The translations under genes were made by a program, and so were the position numbers. A stretch of DNA of 64,000 bases from Hymenobacter montanus (GTDB taxonomy: Bacteria; Bacteroidota; Bacteroidia; Cytophagales; Hymenobacteraceae). Below the pieces are notes generated by a model, which ran no database searches, was not told the DNA's origin, and worked only from the letters and a program-made list of their open reading frames with translations. The DNA lies in assembly GCF_014699115.1 (NCBI RefSeq), contig NZ_JACXAD010000006.1:62001-126000 (forward strand). The letters run 5' to 3'. Position 1 is the stretch's first letter, and each line of letters begins with the position of its first letter. Shown one piece after another: positions 32,987 to 62,418 of the stretch.

Positions 32987-33008
32987 CCCACGGACCACGG
33001 ATTCGCGA

Positions 33009-33233
33009 CCACGGATTCGCGCGGATTTTTCGGATTACACGGATTTTGTGGATGGTTTACTTTTGTCACGTAGGCGTGAGTCCGATTCTCAGGTTTAGGT
33101 ATACGTCCGGCTGAATAATCTCGCTGGCCCTTGCTAACTGTCAACGCAAAAGGCCACCCAATTGGGTGGCCTTTTCCTGTATGAAGTCGTCCACAAAATC
33201 CGTGTAATCCGAAAAATCCGCGCGAATCCGTGG
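33009..33233. repeat. 44-bp perfect inverted repeat pair
   Basis: Arms 33009-33052 and 33190-33233 are perfect reverse complements over 44 bases and include GCGGATTTTTCGGATTACAC. They enclose 137 bases that hold a terminator hairpin. One arm edge touches the 3' end of the iscA-like gene, the other the 3' end of the LytTR gene. Confidence 0.9.
33148..33175. terminator. Bidirectional terminator between lytTR and iscA genes
   Basis: AAAAGGCCACCC (33148-33159) and GGGTGGCCTTTT (33164-33175) form a perfect 12-bp stem with an AATT loop, A-rich on one side and T-rich on the other. It separates the convergent lytTR and isc operons. Confidence 0.85.
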
Positions 33234-33234
33234 T

Positions 33235-33561
33235 TCAGACGGAGAAGCTCTCGCCGCAGCCGCACTCGCGGGAGGCGTTGGGGTTGTGAAACTGAAAGCC
33301 CTTGCCGTTCAGGCCGTCCGAAAAATCCAGCTCGGTGCCGGCCAGGTAGAGGAAGCTCTTCATGTCGACTACTACCCGGACGCCTTTATCTTCGAACTCC
33401 TGGTCCATGGGCCGCACTTCATTGTCGAAATCCAGCTTGTAGCTCAGGCCCGAGCACCCACCACCGGCTACCGAAGCACGCAGGCGGTAAGAGTCGTCCA
33501 GCTGCGCATCGCGCATTAGGCGCGTTACTTTTTCTTTGGCTTTATCAGATACGGTAATCAT
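33235..33561 (-). CDS. iscA: IscA/SufA-type Fe-S assembly protein
   Basis: The 108-residue A-type carrier binds iron or Fe-S clusters through three conserved cysteines. These are Cys36 in GGGCSGLSYKLDF and Cys100 and Cys102 in RECGCGESF. It starts with ITVSDKAKEKVTRLM as is usual. It is the last gene of the minus-strand order iscS-iscU-unknown-iscA and hands clusters to apo-proteins in the cytoplasm. IscA, ErpA and SufA cannot be told apart by motif alone; the name follows its neighbours. Confidence 0.9.
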   Translation of the reverse strand: MITVSDKAKEKVTRLMRDAQLDDSYRLRASVAGGGCSGLSYKLDFDNEVRPMDQEFEDKGVRVVVDMKSFLYLAGTELDFSDGLNGKGFQFHNPNASRECGCGESFSV

Positions 33562-34576: not shown

Positions 34577-34608
34577 GGCTTTTTGTGAATTAAAAATTAA
34601 AAATTTTG

Positions 34609-34669
34609 AATTAAAAATTGAGGGGCGAATCAAATGGATCAGTCCATTTTTAATCCTCAATTTTTAATT
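34609..34669. repeat. AT-rich inverted repeat between iscS and iscU
   Basis: AATTAAAAATTGAGG (34609-34623) and CCTCAATTTTTAATT (34655-34669) are perfect 15-base arms with a 31-base loop. Further AATTAAAAATT copies lie at 34589-34608. The element ends 6 bases before the iscS stop codon and resembles the repeat at 14514-14564. Confidence 0.78.
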
Positions 34670-34675
34670 AATTCC

Positions 34676-35890
34676 CTAGTGTTCGGCCCACTCGATTTTA
34701 CTTAAGTCGACGCCCTCCTTAAACATCTCCCACAAAGGCGACATCTCGCGGAGCTTGGTTACCGCTTCCTTTACGTGGTTGATGGCGTAGTCGATCTGTT
34801 CGTCGGTGGTAAAGCGGCTCAGGCCGAAGCGTAGCGAGGAGTGCGCCAGGTCGTCGCTCAAGCCCAAGGCCTTGAGGACGTAGCTGGGCTCCAGCGAGGC
34901 CGACGTACAGGCCGAGCCCGACGACACGGCCAGGTCTTTCACGCCCATCATCAGCCCTTCGCCTTCGACGTACTTAAAGCTGATGTTGGTAACGTGGGGG
35001 AGGCGGTGCTCCCGGGAGCCGTTTACGTAGCTTTCCTCCAGCGTTAGCAGCTCTTTCTCGAGGCGGTCGCGCATGGTGCGCAGGCGGGCGGTGTCGGCTT
35101 CCATTTCGAGCATCGCCAGCTCGCAGGCCTTACCCAGGCCCACGATGCCGGGCACGTTGAGGGTGCCCGAGCGCATGCCGCGCTCGTGGCCGCCCCCGTC
35201 CATCTGGGCGGTTACTTTTACCCGGGGGTTCTTGCGGCGCACGTACAGCGCGCCCACGCCCTTCGGGCCGTACATCTTATGGGCGGTGAAGGCCATCAGG
35301 TCGATGCCATCGGCAATGACATCCACCGGAACTTTACCTACCGCCTGAGTACCGTCCGTCATGAACAGGGCGCCGTACTGGTGGGCAATCTTGGCGATTT
35401 CGCGGATGGGCTGGATGGTACCCGTCTCGTTGTTGCCGTACATGATGGTGACCAGAATCGTCTCTGGAGTCATGGCGGCGGCGAGCTCTTCGAGGCTGAT
35501 GAGTCCTTGCTCGTTCACCGGCAGGTACGTGACGCGGGCGCCGAGCTTCTCGAGGTGCTTACAGGTATCGAGCACCGCTTTGTGCTCGGTGGTAGCGGTG
35601 ATGATGTGGTTACCCTTCTGGCTGTACATCTCGAACACGCCCTTGATGCCCAGGTTGTCCGACTCGGTAGCGCCCGAGGTGAAGATGATTTCCTTGGGGT
35701 CGCAGTTAATGAGCTTGGCGATTTGTTCCCGGGCGTAATCAACGGCTTCTTCGGCCGCCCAGCCGAAAGGATGGTTGCGCGAAGCGGCGTTGCCAAACAC
35801 TTCGGTCAGGTAAGGCATCATGGCCTCTAGTACCCGGGGGTCGAGCGGGGTGGTAGCGTTGTTGTCGAGGTAAATAGGGAGCTTAAGCAT
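34676..35890 (-). CDS. iscS: Cysteine desulfurase IscS
   Basis: IscS is a PLP enzyme that takes sulfur from cysteine for Fe-S clusters and other thio-compounds. The 404 residues include [14 protein letters not shown] at the start, the cofactor Lys205 in [11 protein letters not shown], and the active-site Cys328 in [11 protein letters not shown]. The long loop around it marks group I (IscS/NifS). The C-terminus ends with [10 protein letters not shown] as in E. coli-type IscS. It heads the operon; a TACTTTTG box and a GACAATC/GATTGTC repeat lie about 100 bases upstream. Confidence 0.95.
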
Positions 35891-49971: not shown

Positions 49972-50904
49972 TTAGCGAGCCAGCTTGAAACCGAGGAGCA
50001 ACTCTTTCACTGGCATGCGCTTTTTGCCTTCGAGCTGCACATCCAGCAAATCCAGCCAGCCATCAGCAGTAGCTACGCGTAGAAAGTGCCGACCATCCGA
50101 AGCCCAGCTACCCGGTGTGGGCAGGGGCGTATCCGCTTCGGGTACCTGGACCTGGGCTCGGAATATTTTCAGCAAGCGGCCGTCGGGCAGGGTAGCGAAG
50201 GCGGCGGGAATGGGAGAAAGGCCCCGCACCCAGTTCACCAGCTCGGCGGCGGGCCGGCTGAAATCGAGTCGCCCGGTTTCTTTCTGAATCTTGGGGGCCG
50301 GGCGTAAGTCAGCGCGTGGTGCCTGGGGAATGCTGGGAGCGGTGCCGGCCGCGATGGCTTCGACTGAGCGGCGGGCCAAGGCGGCCCCCGCTACCTTGAG
50401 CTTGGCGTAAAGGCTGCCAAAATCATCTTCGGGCGCGATGGGCACCCGATCCTGCAAAATCAGGTTGCCAGTGTCGATTTCGTGCCGCAGGAAAAAAGAG
50501 GTAACCCCGGTTTCCGTGTCGCCGTGCATCAGGGCCCAATTGATGGGGGCCGCGCCGCGGTACTGCGGCAACAGCGAAGCGTGCACGTTGATGGACCCGA
50601 GCCGAGGCATGCTCCACACCGCTTCGGGGAGCATGCGAAAGGCCACGACCACCTGCAAGTCGGCCGCGTAGGTTTTCAGCTCGGCCTGAAATTCGGGGGA
50701 CTTGAGGTTGGTGGGTTGCAGCACGGGCAGGCCATGAGCCAGGGCCGCCACCTTCACCGCCGACGCTTGCAGCTGCTGCCCGCGTCCCGCCGGCCGGTCG
50801 GGGGCTGTAATAACAGCTACTACCCGTCCGCCCGGCCAGGCCAATAGGCTTTCCAGCGTGGGAACGGCAAAATCGGGCGTACCCATGAAAACGAGGTTCA
50901 GCAT
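49972..50904 (-). CDS. fmt: Methionyl-tRNA formyltransferase
   Basis: The 310-residue enzyme formylates Met-tRNA(fMet) with 10-formyl-tetrahydrofolate. It has LVFMGTPDFAVPTLESLL at the start, APDRPAGRGQQLQASAVK, and the catalytic block SINVHASLLPQYRGAAPINWAL with HASLLP, followed by GVTSFFLRHEIDTGNLILQ. The C-terminal OB-like domain follows (about 205-310). ATG at 50904 is chosen; residues upstream in the same frame are translated repeat. The gap to namZ upstream is filled by an inverted-repeat element. folA follows 33 bases downstream and supplies the folate cofactor pathway. Confidence 0.94.
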   Translation of the reverse strand: MLNLVFMGTPDFAVPTLESLLAWPGGRVVAVITAPDRPAGRGQQLQASAVKVAALAHGLPVLQPTNLKSPEFQAELKTYAADLQVVVAFRMLPEAVWSMPRLGSINVHASLLPQYRGAAPINWALMHGDTETGVTSFFLRHEIDTGNLILQDRVPIAPEDDFGSLYAKLKVAGAALARRSVEAIAAGTAPSIPQAPRADLRPAPKIQKETGRLDFSRPAAELVNWVRGLSPIPAAFATLPDGRLLKIFRAQVQVPEADTPLPTPGSWASDGRHFLRVATADGWLDLLDVQLEGKKRMPVKELLLGFKLAR

Positions 50905-51108
50905 AGTGGTGCTTGGTTTTTGGTGCCTGGTGCTTGGTTGTTGGTGCTTAGTTGTTAGAATATCATGCTCATCTCGTCTTCGCGCGATCCAAGCAGCTCG
51001 CGTGGAGCAGCAAGCAATGCCGTTGCAATAATGCGGGCCAGCTGCTTCGGTGGCGCTCGGCAGGACCTTCCAACAACCAAGCACTAAGCACCAGGCACCA
51101 CCAACCAA
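50905..51108. repeat. Inverted-repeat (MITE-like) element, copy A
   Basis: The ends are inverted versions of a GGTGCCTGGTGCTTGG-rich sequence (about 50907-50960 and 51067-51108). The interior contains AGAATATCATGCTCATCT and GGCAGGACCTT, which recur with small changes in copy B at 60744-60972. The element fills the whole gap between the fmt start and the namZ stop. Confidence 0.75.
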
Positions 51109-60273: not shown

Positions 60274-60795
60274 CTACACCGGCTTGAACTGCTCGAATAG
60301 TTGGCGGCAATCGTGGCAGTAATGTACGGCGCGACACAACGTTGCCCCAAACGGCGTCCGCAGCTCGGTATTGTTGCCGTGGCAGTTGGGGCACTCCGCG
60401 TACTCCAGAAAATCCAGGTCCAGCACCTGGTGGTCGAGCACCGGGGGCGGCGAGAGCTTATGCTGCCGCAAGGCCTCGCGGCCGGCCTCGGTGAGCATGT
60501 CCGAACTCCAGGCCTCGCGCAAGCTGATGTCAACTTCCACCACCGGCACCCCGTGCGCCAGCAGAGTGCGCTCCACGTCGCGCTTCATGTAGTCCATGGC
60601 CGGGCAGCCCGCGAAGGTAGGCGTGAGGTGAACCCGCACGTTGCCCGTGGCCTCGTCAACTTCCACGCCCCGCACCACCCCCAGATCAACGAGTGAAATA
60701 GTCGGAATCTCCGGGTCTTTCACGGCTTGAAGCCACTCTAGGACTTGGTGCTTGGTGCATGGTGCTTGGTGCATGGTGCATGGTGCTTGGTGCAT
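60274..60795 (-). CDS. paaD: PaaD, Fe-S/zinc assembly factor of phenylacetyl-CoA epoxidase
   Basis: The protein (173 residues from the first ATG) combines a DUF59/MIP18 domain (VLEWLQAVKDPEIPTISLVDLGVVRGVEV, TPTFAGCPAMDYMK) with a C-terminal four-Cys ribbon (ECPNCHGNNTEL...CHDC). PaaD is needed to mature the epoxidase complex. The first 17 residues, MHQAPCTMHQAPCTKHQ, are translated from a tandem DNA repeat and are not family sequence; the start may be 60795 or 60774. The conserved part begins right at the repeat edge. Confidence 0.88.
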   Translation of the reverse strand: MHQAPCTMHQAPCTKHQVLEWLQAVKDPEIPTISLVDLGVVRGVEVDEATGNVRVHLTPTFAGCPAMDYMKRDVERTLLAHGVPVVEVDISLREAWSSDMLTEAGREALRQHKLSPPPVLDHQVLDLDFLEYAECPNCHGNNTELRTPFGATLCRAVHYCHDCRQLFEQFKPV

Positions 60796-60972
60796 AGTTG
60801 TTGGTGCTTGGTTGTTGGTGCCTGGTTAGAACGTCATGCTCATCTGGCGTCCGCTGAGTCGAAGAGGAAGTATCCGGTCGTGAGTATGAAATGAAGTGAG
60901 CGAGGTGCCTCAACTGCGCTTGGCAGGACGTTTTACCAAGCACTAGGCACCAAGCACCAACAACCAATAACC
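60744..60972. repeat. Inverted-repeat (MITE-like) element, copy B
   Basis: A tandem array of TGGTGCTTGGTGCA units (60747-60795) and GGTGCTTGGTTGTTGGTGCC form the left end. AAGCACTAGGCACC and AAGCACCAACAACC (60938-60966) form the inverted right end. The interior has TAGAACGTCATGCTCATCT and GGCAGGACGTT, as in copy A (50905-51108). It separates paaC from paaD, and its left end is the 5' end of the paaD coding sequence. Confidence 0.8.
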
Positions 60973-60977
60973 GAATA

Positions 60978-61727
60978 CTACCAATCAGCCGTGGGGTCGA
61001 GGCGAAATACTTCGGCCATCTCATCCAGCAGCGGCTGCAAAAACTCGGTATGCTGCCCCTGCCGCCCACCCGCTACGGGGGCCAGGCTGAGGACATCCGG
61101 CATTTCCAGCGCCGTTTGAGCCACTACCTTGGTGATGCTCTCCAGCCAGCGGCTCCGCAGTTCGTCTTCGCCAACAAACAAGCCGGTGCTAATAATTTCC
61201 GCCTCGGCGTCGGTTTTCTCAAAAATGCCCAGTGCGTAGGGCAGCGTAAAGTTGAGCGAGCGCTGCATCCGCTCGATGGCCTCCTCGGTGGCCGTGCCGA
61301 GGCGCTTCATCCAGGTATTGGCGTGCAAAACGTGATATTTTAGCTCGCCCCGCAGCTTGCGGGCCACTTGGGCCAGGGGCTCGTAGGTGCTGGTAGCCAG
61401 CGCCTCGAACCGCAGCAGCTCGGCGTGGTCGAACAGAAAATGACGCGTCAGGCTGAAGTCGTACTCCCCAATGGGCAGCTCCACCAGCTGGCAGCAATGA
61501 AACTGCGGCGCGTTGCGAGTGAAGGCCACCGTGTCGGGCTCGGCTTCGCCCAGCTGGTGCAGCAGCGAGTACAGCTGCAAGCTGTGGCCGAGCTTGTCCT
61601 GGGCCATGCTCGAGAAGGCGATGTCTTCTTCCAGAATGGGCCCCAGGCCGTTCCATTCCGAGTTGCGATGCCCCAGAATGAGCTGGTCGTCGGCGAGTCG
61701 ATAGAGTAAGTCGAGCTTGGGGTCCAT
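60978..61727 (-). CDS. paaC: Phenylacetyl-CoA epoxidase structural subunit PaaC
   Basis: PaaC is the catalytically inactive ferritin-like partner that stabilises PaaA. The 249 residues begin MDPKLDLLYRLADDQLILGHRNSEWNGLGPILEEDIAFSSMAQDKLGHSLQLYSLL, the usual start, and contain FLFDHAELLRFEAL and LKYHVLHANTWMKRLG. The ATG at 61727 is 4 bases after the end of paaB, so translation is coupled. The gene ends at the edge of repeat copy B. Confidence 0.92.
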   Translation of the reverse strand: MDPKLDLLYRLADDQLILGHRNSEWNGLGPILEEDIAFSSMAQDKLGHSLQLYSLLHQLGEAEPDTVAFTRNAPQFHCCQLVELPIGEYDFSLTRHFLFDHAELLRFEALATSTYEPLAQVARKLRGELKYHVLHANTWMKRLGTATEEAIERMQRSLNFTLPYALGIFEKTDAEAEIISTGLFVGEDELRSRWLESITKVVAQTALEMPDVLSLAPVAGGRQGQHTEFLQPLLDEMAEVFRLDPTADW

Positions 61728-61731
61728 GAGC

Positions 61732-62418
61732 TTACGAATTTTCGGCTTTGAATTTTTCGATGCGGTCCTGCACCTTGTAGGCAATGGCATCGCGATACTT
61801 TTTTTCCGGCGTAGTAGCCCAAATATCCCGGTCTTCGGCGTCGGAGCGCAGGAAGTCGGCCGACCGGGCGGCCCAGACATTCACCACCGGGCGCTGCTCC
61901 CCAAATGCCGCCTTGGCGACTTGCAGCGCGTGGCCCGGGGAGCTGGCGCGCACCTGGCCCACGTGCTGGTGCGCCTTGCCCCGCTTCTTAAGGTGGAAAA
62001 TATCGTAGTCGGTTTCACCCGCCTCACCTGCTTCAACAACCGTCCGTTCGGCGGCCGGGGCGCTCGTTCCCGGCGAGCTGGCGTCAGGGGCTGGTTCTTT
62101 GTGGCTGGTTACCAGCGGCAGCGTGTCGTAGGCCGACTCCTGGTCGCCCACGTAGGCCGTTACCGTGATGGCCGCCGTGGGCACGACCCATAAGCCGGTG
62201 CAGGCAAAGCGCCGGCTGTACTGCTCCTTGGCGAACAGAAAGGCTACGTCGGCTTCGGGCGCGTGCACAGGCCCTACGTACACGTAAGGAGCGCCTTCCT
62301 TCTTTTGGTGAAATACCTCGTAGGTGCCAAACTGGTCGAGGGCTTCCTTGGCGACCGCGGCGGCTGGCGCGTCGGAAAGTCCCAGGCGATTCATGCGCGG
62401 GTCGTGCGATTGGATCAT
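61732..62418 (-). CDS. paaB: PaaB with two tandem PaaB domains
   Basis: PaaB bridges PaaA and PaaC dimers in the epoxidase. Enterobacterial PaaB is about 95 residues; this protein has 228 and contains the domain twice: FGTYEVFHQKKEGAPYVYVGPVHAPEADVAFLFAKEQY (from 30) and YDIFHLKKRGKAHQHVGQVRASSPGHALQVAKAAFG (from 138), joined by an Ala/Pro/Glu-rich linker (about 105-135). The second copy continues into a charged helical tail. It lies between paaA (109 bases upstream) and paaC (4 bases downstream). Confidence 0.88.
   Translation of the reverse strand: MIQSHDPRMNRLGLSDAPAAAVAKEALDQFGTYEVFHQKKEGAPYVYVGPVHAPEADVAFLFAKEQYSRRFACTGLWVVPTAAITVTAYVGDQESAYDTLPLVTSHKEPAPDASSPGTSAPAAERTVVEAGEAGETDYDIFHLKKRGKAHQHVGQVRASSPGHALQVAKAAFGEQRPVVNVWAARSADFLRSDAEDRDIWATTPEKKYRDAIAYKVQDRIEKFKAENS

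Follow-up and report, generated by a model that had tools for sequence, protein, structure and literature searches.

The genes paaA-paaB-paaC-paaD lie on the minus strand of the window, as the whole stretch of 64,000 nucleotides analysed here is called. The paaB stop (61732) and the ATG of PaaC ('MDPKLD', at about 61727, placed by hand) are 4 nt apart, and 182 nt separate the paaC stop at 60978 from the first in-frame ATG of paaD at 60795. What fills the longer gap, how it arose and where the translation of PaaD begins are the questions raised by this locus. A sequence-only reading had reported both gaps and an inverted-repeat element in the longer one, which is confirmed from the sequence; its statement that the repeat is read as the first 17 residues of PaaD (MHQAPCTMHQAPCTKHQ) also holds on translation. 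The 14-bp unit it proposed gives way to a unit of 7 bp, TTGGTGC with variants, two of which make up the 14 bp (TRF, Table 1). We consider the repeat, with a probability of about 0.58, to be an ORF-less ('solo') copy of a family of Hymenobacter intercistronic hairpins, protein-operon relatives of the intervening sequences of 23S rRNA.

Anatomy of the paaC-paaD junction and the start of PaaD

In the transcript the stop codon is followed by a TTGGTGC arm, a REP-like core, a GCACCAA arm and the ATG, and the second arm runs on past this ATG (Table 1). The complementary ends form a long stem (junction fold z −4.95). A two-unit pattern with one mismatch allowed matches 29 times in the window against 3.85 expected, which is not chance. 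The open reading frame 60274-60795 is PaaD (TIGR02159, 155.6 bits at a cut-off of 108.15); it opens with MHQAPCTMHQAPCTKHQVLEWLQAVKDPEIP, the first 17 residues being supplied by the array 60744-60826. The upstream PaaB (61732-62418) is a 228-residue ORF with two stretches matching PF06243 and TIGR02157, profiles of about 90 positions. No PF05635 ORF lies inside the paa element, and insertion site, target duplication and an empty allele of the same lineage were all not found at this junction; both results count against our reading.

Table 1 Repeat elements and paa genes in the window
Feature	Coordinates	Strand	Evidence
Inverted CGGATT-type arms around an intrinsic-terminator-like palindrome, by eye	32990..33240		TRF; sequence
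Inverted AATTAAA-type arms, by eye	34588..34680		TRF; sequence
Second window copy, likewise arms with a REP-like core, located between the start of the fmt-like gene (50904, −) and an ORF upstream of it	50906..51107		Repeat search; sequence
paaD, 173 codons with array-encoded N-terminus	60274..60795	−	PF01883, PF23451 and TIGR02159 matches
Array of 7-bp units TTGGTGC / ATGGTGC / TTGGTTG, the 3' arm of the element (transcript GCACCAA), over the paaD start	60744..60826	+	TRF period 7, 11.9 copies; repeat search
Stretch of the 3' arm that encodes residues 1-17 of PaaD (MHQAPCTMHQAPCTKHQ), with in-frame ATGs at 60795 and 60774	60745..60795	−	Sequence, translation
Core, a degenerate REP-like palindrome (AGAACGTCATGCTCATC...GGCAGGACGTT)	60827..60934		22 further partial matches in the genome
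5' arm, TTGGTGC sense in the transcript, starting about 10 nt past the paaC stop	60935..60967 (about)	−	Inverted repeat pairs I1-I8; position (L086); junction fold
paaC ORF, likely start about 61727	60978..61880	−	TIGR02158, PF05138

The junction was compared with that of relatives, a check proposed by the sequence-only reading. Hymenobacter sp. BT770 (L141) and H. frigidus (L144) have no element between paaC and paaD, and their PaaD proteins start MPVTIPDKAQILDW and MYKAQILDW, respectively. In H. glacialis, H. lapidarius, H. arizonensis, IS2118 and H. cyanobacteriorum the junction bears arms of another type, TTAGCTG (L140, L143, L146, L147, L148), with an ATG between the arms and the 3' arm as the N-terminus in the paaD frame (e.g. 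MQNDANSPQPIAKSQILEW). H. arizonensis has an additional earlier in-frame ATG, and the upstream reading of L146 is MAVSLTYKII... One MAG (L142) carries TTGGTGC-type arms like those here and a PaaD N-terminus MHQALITKHQVLDW in frame; it has four units against seven in this genome (counted by hand), a three-unit difference which keeps the frame. In other relatives the place is taken by REP-like hairpins, a small ORF or repeats of another kind. In a second, distant PaaD group (37-40 % identity; L051, L060) TTAGCTG arms are likewise read as the PaaD N-terminus.

The stem is pronounced in some of these relatives (z −8.5 in L146, −3.8 in L140, −2.6 in L148), and three junctions without word arms fold with z above 0. 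The weak folds of L143 (−1.3), L147 (−1.6) and L142 (−1.3) speak against our reading, as do two results from the five TTAGCTG relatives: covariation of the paaD stem is modest, four pairs being changed on both sides, a number reached by 11 of 500 shuffles, and strict arm scoring called a 3' arm in one of the five only (L148).

Hymenobacter possesses two deeply different groups of PaaD. Ten records share 83-92 % identity, and the PaaD of genome G025 has 38 % despite a NuoD 99 % identical to that of this genome; a transfer of the paa operon between lineages is possible. The junctions of the same-genus genomes G008, G016 and G027 (L034, L036, L033) recur in H. amundsenii, H. aerophilus and Hymenobacter sp. 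ISL-91 (L152, L156, L151). A small ORF, whose length was judged by eye as roughly 130 codons, occupies the junction in L149, L150, L152 and L153 and also in L034 and L035, and beside it in L149, L152 and L153 a CACTAAGCACCAA remnant stands directly ahead of the paaD ATG.

Two in-frame ATGs, codons 1 and 8, are present in the array, and the open paaD frame upstream of codon 1 contains no ATG, GTG or TTG. If codon 8 is the start, 13 residues precede the W of LEWL, just as in the array-free BT770. Starting at GTG25 would shorten the PF01883 match (residues 16-88) by nine residues at its beginning; the TIGR02159 match itself begins at residue 25, and this codon keeps a small likelihood as an alternative start. 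Since the armless relatives L144 and L141 begin ahead of LEWL, an upstream start is favoured. PaaD is therefore most likely translated from an ATG within the array and would carry the array-encoded residues as an N-terminal appendage. That an array could turn into an N-terminus is understandable because GCACCAA repeats are free of stop codons in all frames (translated by hand).

The extension of the five TTAGCTG relatives differs at codon positions 1, 2 and 3 in 22, 31 and 60 cases (34 synonymous and 53 non-synonymous codon pairs), compared with 106, 50 and 364 in the next 100 codons (284 synonymous, 124 non-synonymous), all counts being pairwise among the five and the pairs not independent. 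The concentration of differences at third positions speaks for translation of the arm; on these counts the extension looks translated yet only weakly constrained.

One word in this genome, other words across the genus

A three-unit pattern of the TTGGTGC word matches 112 times in this genome and its reversed version once. The 32 regions that were fetched cover 100 of the 112 matches, and on them rests the count of 34 array clusters, of which 27 are intergenic, six lie inside predicted ORFs and one is at a contig end. With gene calls from a simple, uncurated codon-usage or ORF rule, which also underlies the slot and PF05635 counts below, all 27 intergenic clusters (L090 counting as two) lie between codirectional genes, compared with 29 of 48 neighbouring gene pairs of the window; at L064 the next gene is 1,560 nt away. 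All 21 two-armed clusters have one polarity, TTGGTGC..core..GCACCAA. The genes downstream of ten elements, named by Pfam, include the 49-kDa (nuoD) and chain-5 (nuoL) subunits of complex I and RecR. Inside ORFs GCACCAA is on the coding strand in five of six arrays, as at PaaD, and the ORF around the sixth (L067) is likely to be a false call. The in-ORF arrays of L066, L076, L077, L082 and L092 encode HQAPSTK-like stretches, and so does L065 (G000:C6:1-88), where a contig starts within a perfect array of 12 units. Given this contig start, assembly may fail across long arrays, and the copy numbers counted here may be too low.

The two arms of an element belong together. Rare unit variants are shared by the arms of the same element (score 19.9 against 7.3 ± 2.3 with arms swapped among 21 elements; 0 of 20,000); a mirrored order of the units, expected by eye, did not exceed chance (z 1.31, n = 21; z 2.26, n = 12), which weakens our reading. 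Cores are partly shared as well: L070 and L078, at different loci, have a common core (90.5 % over 74 bp), and L068, L085, L086, L087 and L088 share pieces of the REP-like core, those of both window copies (L085, L086) each resembling the core of L087. Otherwise the cores differ. The second window copy adjoins a gene starting at 50904 (−) which we take, from its sequence and not by family search, to be fmt-like. The REP-like core also exists without arms, 13 of 14 partial matches fetched as loci having no TTGGTGC pairs within about 1.5 kb. No plasmid relatives were found, and known RNA families gave no match at the gathering threshold.

Exact TTGGTGC patterns occur in 15 of 61 genomes of the genus. 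With two mismatches allowed, the pattern is present in five of the ten genus members among 148 genomes of the order and in one of the 138 others, there as a single match; the reversed control is found in three genomes. The TTAGCTG pattern, again with two mismatches, is more widespread in the genus (52 of 61 genomes; controls 0). Its placement in the fetched regions is less uniform and disagrees with our reading: nine clusters between codirectional, 11 between convergent and none between divergent genes in G016, and 14, five and one in G008. The same applies to cores within arms that are sometimes intrinsic terminators. At the convergent genes of L221, L222 and L225 in G016 the TTAGCTG arms adjoin the stop codons and extend the stem of the enclosed intrinsic-terminator-like palindrome outward. 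Terminator-like palindromes enclosed by the arms are difficult to explain by a simple insertion, which would leave the native spacer outside.

One junction can be occupied by different words in different species. Between nuoC and nuoD, 10 of 30 loci have a plain gap of 18 nt, 12 a REP-like hairpin, four TTGGTGC arms (five with L287), and one each TTAGCTG, TTAGAAC and something else. Upstream of recR the 30 loci comprise three with TTGGTGC, four with TTGTCAG, three with TTAGCTG, five with AATGTGG, four with REP, 10 others and one without a called upstream gene. At fmt TTGGTGC occurs in this genome only, next to eight REP, three CGCAGAGG-type, one short and 15 other junctions and two without an upstream gene (30 loci). 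The 50 paaD loci show TTGGTGC once, TTAGCTG eight times, AATGTGG once and REP seven times, with 12 short, 15 other and six lacking an upstream gene. All these classes come from regular expressions, and 'other' makes up 15/30 at fmt, 10/30 at recR and 15/50 at paaD; moreover, the nuoD, recR and fmt slots were chosen for the presence of TTGGTGC in this genome, so that their occupancy is biased, and each 30-locus set includes this genome.

Whatever the word, the two arms match where both can be called. Among 97 slots of 45-300 nt (shorter, longer and upstream-less ones dropped) both arms were called in 31, one arm in eight and none in 58, and the words agreed in 31 of the 31; with permuted arms, agreement averaged 7.9 slots and reached 20 at most. 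In the orthologous slots with four words the 5' arm starts a median of 4 nt after the stop codon (24 slots) and the 3' arm ends a median of 5.5 nt before the start codon (18 slots). The arms of these words point outward in 24 cases across the genus and are reversed in none.

Arms around PF05635 genes and the weighing of explanations

A gene of the PF05635 / TIGR02436 (S23) family lies between TTGGTGC arms in this genome (L372). Each of its other three PF05635 genes is bracketed by inverted words too, all different, the AATGTGG one being recognised by eye only; the AATTAAA word of 34588-34680 also brackets one PF05635 gene, L374. PF05635 matches were found in 50 of 61 genomes, and the set studied consists of the four genes of this genome and the best one from each of 29 others. 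Matched inverted arms flank 24 of these 33 genes (among them three of the four in this genome) and two of 107 control genes, in a test that used stricter alignment scores plus 7- or 8-bp periodicity, with arms within 330 nt on both sides and thresholds set after a weaker first test; the nine that fail count against our reading. Alignment score without periodicity gives 24 PF05635 and four control genes. In the first, cruder flank test, whose null contains same-word pairs, only eight of 33 exceeded the 99th percentile of mismatched flank pairs, a further point on the negative side. The 33 loci represent about 15 slots, grouped by hand, so that the effective number is smaller. Both neighbours are codirectional with the PF05635 gene in 28 of 33.

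A single PF05635 slot has different words in different species. With word labels of the PF05635 loci assigned by eye, the word around the gene equals the word of the solo slots in five of 10 genomes (permuted mean 1.3, P 0.0014; 4/9 without this genome, P 0.004) and differs in the other five, the latter contrary to our reading. Between different slots, PF05635 proteins with the same word have an identity of 0.67, those with different words 0.40 (0 of 5,000 permutations), the former figure coming from only five same-word pairs.

The preferred reading, a solo copy of a hairpin family related to the intervening sequences, builds on the anatomy, the copy number, the codirectional placement in this genome, the word-matched arms, the sharing of slots between species and the arms around PF05635 genes. 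Each element consists of inverted arms of tandem words of about 7 bp, here TTGGTGC..GCACCAA from outside in, around a variable core, and can fold into a long hairpin in the transcript. Because other members carry a PF05635 gene between their arms, the family is read as related to the 23S rRNA intervening sequences. Such an element would spread as a unit; in this genome the TTGGTGC word has reached many junctions. Insertions would survive between a stop and the next start, where a hairpin in the transcript is tolerated. RNase III would be likely to accept the RNA stem as a substrate, as in the account of intervening sequences cited here (PMC4990558), and the S23 protein may aid the mobility of the family. 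At paa the 3' arm covers the paaD start, and an array ATG would be used and array residues appended. More tentatively, one can imagine mobile mRNA intervening elements in Hymenobacter operons: S23-encoding, word-armed hairpins whose S23-less copies spread in trans by word recognition, S23 being the mobility factor hypothesised for intervening sequences and word and protein co-evolving. We regard this extended version as rather doubtful.

About equally doubtful is the view that selection keeps a stem between stop and start for mRNA stability, translational coupling or attenuation, while the words are incidental and replaced by gene conversion or slippage. Unrelated hairpins in the same slots of many species, the agreement of the words in every callable slot, the modest paaD covariation and the arms around intrinsic-terminator-like palindromes at some convergent G016 genes would all fit it. 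However, 10 of the nuoC-nuoD gaps are only 18 nt long, L141 and L144 manage without a hairpin at paaD, the elements adjoin unrelated genes, and a link to PF05635 is not predicted. Neutral expansion of heptamers by slippage, with no element behind it, would account for the period of 7, the imperfect units and their varying number, and heptanucleotides are abundant in surveyed genomes, being the commonest category of long repeats in most genomes of a survey referred to in the cited part of PMC4679880. Slippage yields direct repeats, though, and not paired inverted arms of one polarity, let alone arms that share rare units and bracket PF05635 genes or cores shared by distant loci; we hold this explanation to be improbable.

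Least credible of all, and highly improbable in our judgement, is the suggestion of the sequence-only reading that the paaD start was lost to a recent insertion which now serves as a phase-variation switch for phenylacetate use. Part of that suggestion survives: the element occupies the junction, and the array provides upstream in-frame ATGs, the sole starts upstream of LEWL. Furthermore, the unit length of 7 is not divisible by 3, and if one unit were added beside the gene, no ATG of the array would remain in frame (derived by hand). A single recent insertion is at odds with the six near relatives which already have word arms in the paaD frame. Switching finds no support in the sole same-word comparison, L142, where the three-unit difference preserves the frame, nor in the imperfect units, and 26 further intergenic clusters in the genome stand beside genes such as nuoD, nuoL and recR.

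What makes the locus interesting is not a phase switch of phenylacetate use but a system of interchangeable intercistronic hairpins that spans the genus and is linked to an S23 gene; the phenylacetate aspect is a minor consequence. The same gene between inverted word arms, together with the same junction empty or bearing solo hairpins of varied words, amounts to a natural experiment on intervening sequences. It further hints at a way in which protein N-termini may come to be encoded by repeat DNA, and start-codon calls next to such elements are unreliable.

Comparison with known systems

Among repetitive palindromes, REPs are tagged by CGTC or GTAG in the description consulted (PMC3733652). 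The core of the paa element resembles them as a dispersed REP-like palindrome of many copies, and in other species the same slots can hold REP-like hairpins; the heptad arms, however, are not REPs. Mobilisation by a RAYT was considered and rejected: of six PF01797 (Y1_Tnp) matches in the genome, four over the cut-off, none has TTGGTGC pairs or the core motifs sought within about 1.5 kb. MITEs and the Rickettsia palindromic elements are likewise many-copy palindromes which, in the part of PMC10969869 cited, are at times fused in frame to host proteins, but here neither a terminal repeat of fixed sequence nor a target duplication was found, and what is translated is an N-terminus built of tandem words. 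Searches of the open-licence PMC literature brought up no description of the Hymenobacter repeats, and their silence is no proof.

The TAACTGA heptamers are reported from Beggiatoaceae, Cyanobacteria and some Bacteroidetes (MacGregor 2015, PMC4679880). They are tandem units of 7 bp as well, mostly intergenic, close to a start codon and pointing at it (PMC4679880); arrays pointing at a nearby start codon are also found here, and at paaD the array overruns the start. Sets inside ORFs are located mostly at protein ends, and one set in Flexibacter litoralis is reversed right after a stop codon (PMC4679880). Unlike TTGGTGC in this genome, the word is TAACTGA, and the repeats are direct, with one indirect repeat in the BOGUAY genome (PMC4679880). 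Paired arms, a change of word at one junction and a link to S23 as in Hymenobacter are not described in the sections of that article cited here (PMC4679880).

Intervening sequences form stem-loops, contain an S23 ORF and are excised by RNase III; their mobility is unresolved, and neither their means of spread nor the function of the S23 protein is known, according to the cited part of PMC4990558. Like them, the Hymenobacter elements have a core enclosed by inverted arms that pair into a long stem, and sister elements contain the same small four-helix-bundle gene between the arms (PMC4990558, for the portion cited). In contrast, the Hymenobacter elements sit between genes of protein operons, and their arms are tandem arrays of words that vary by species. 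The paa copy in itself does not qualify as a 23S rRNA intervening sequence, being located between paaC and paaD instead of in a pre-23S rRNA helix and lacking an S23 ORF. The nearest published repeats are the TAACTGA heptamers, and the nearest element is the intervening sequence with an S23 ORF.
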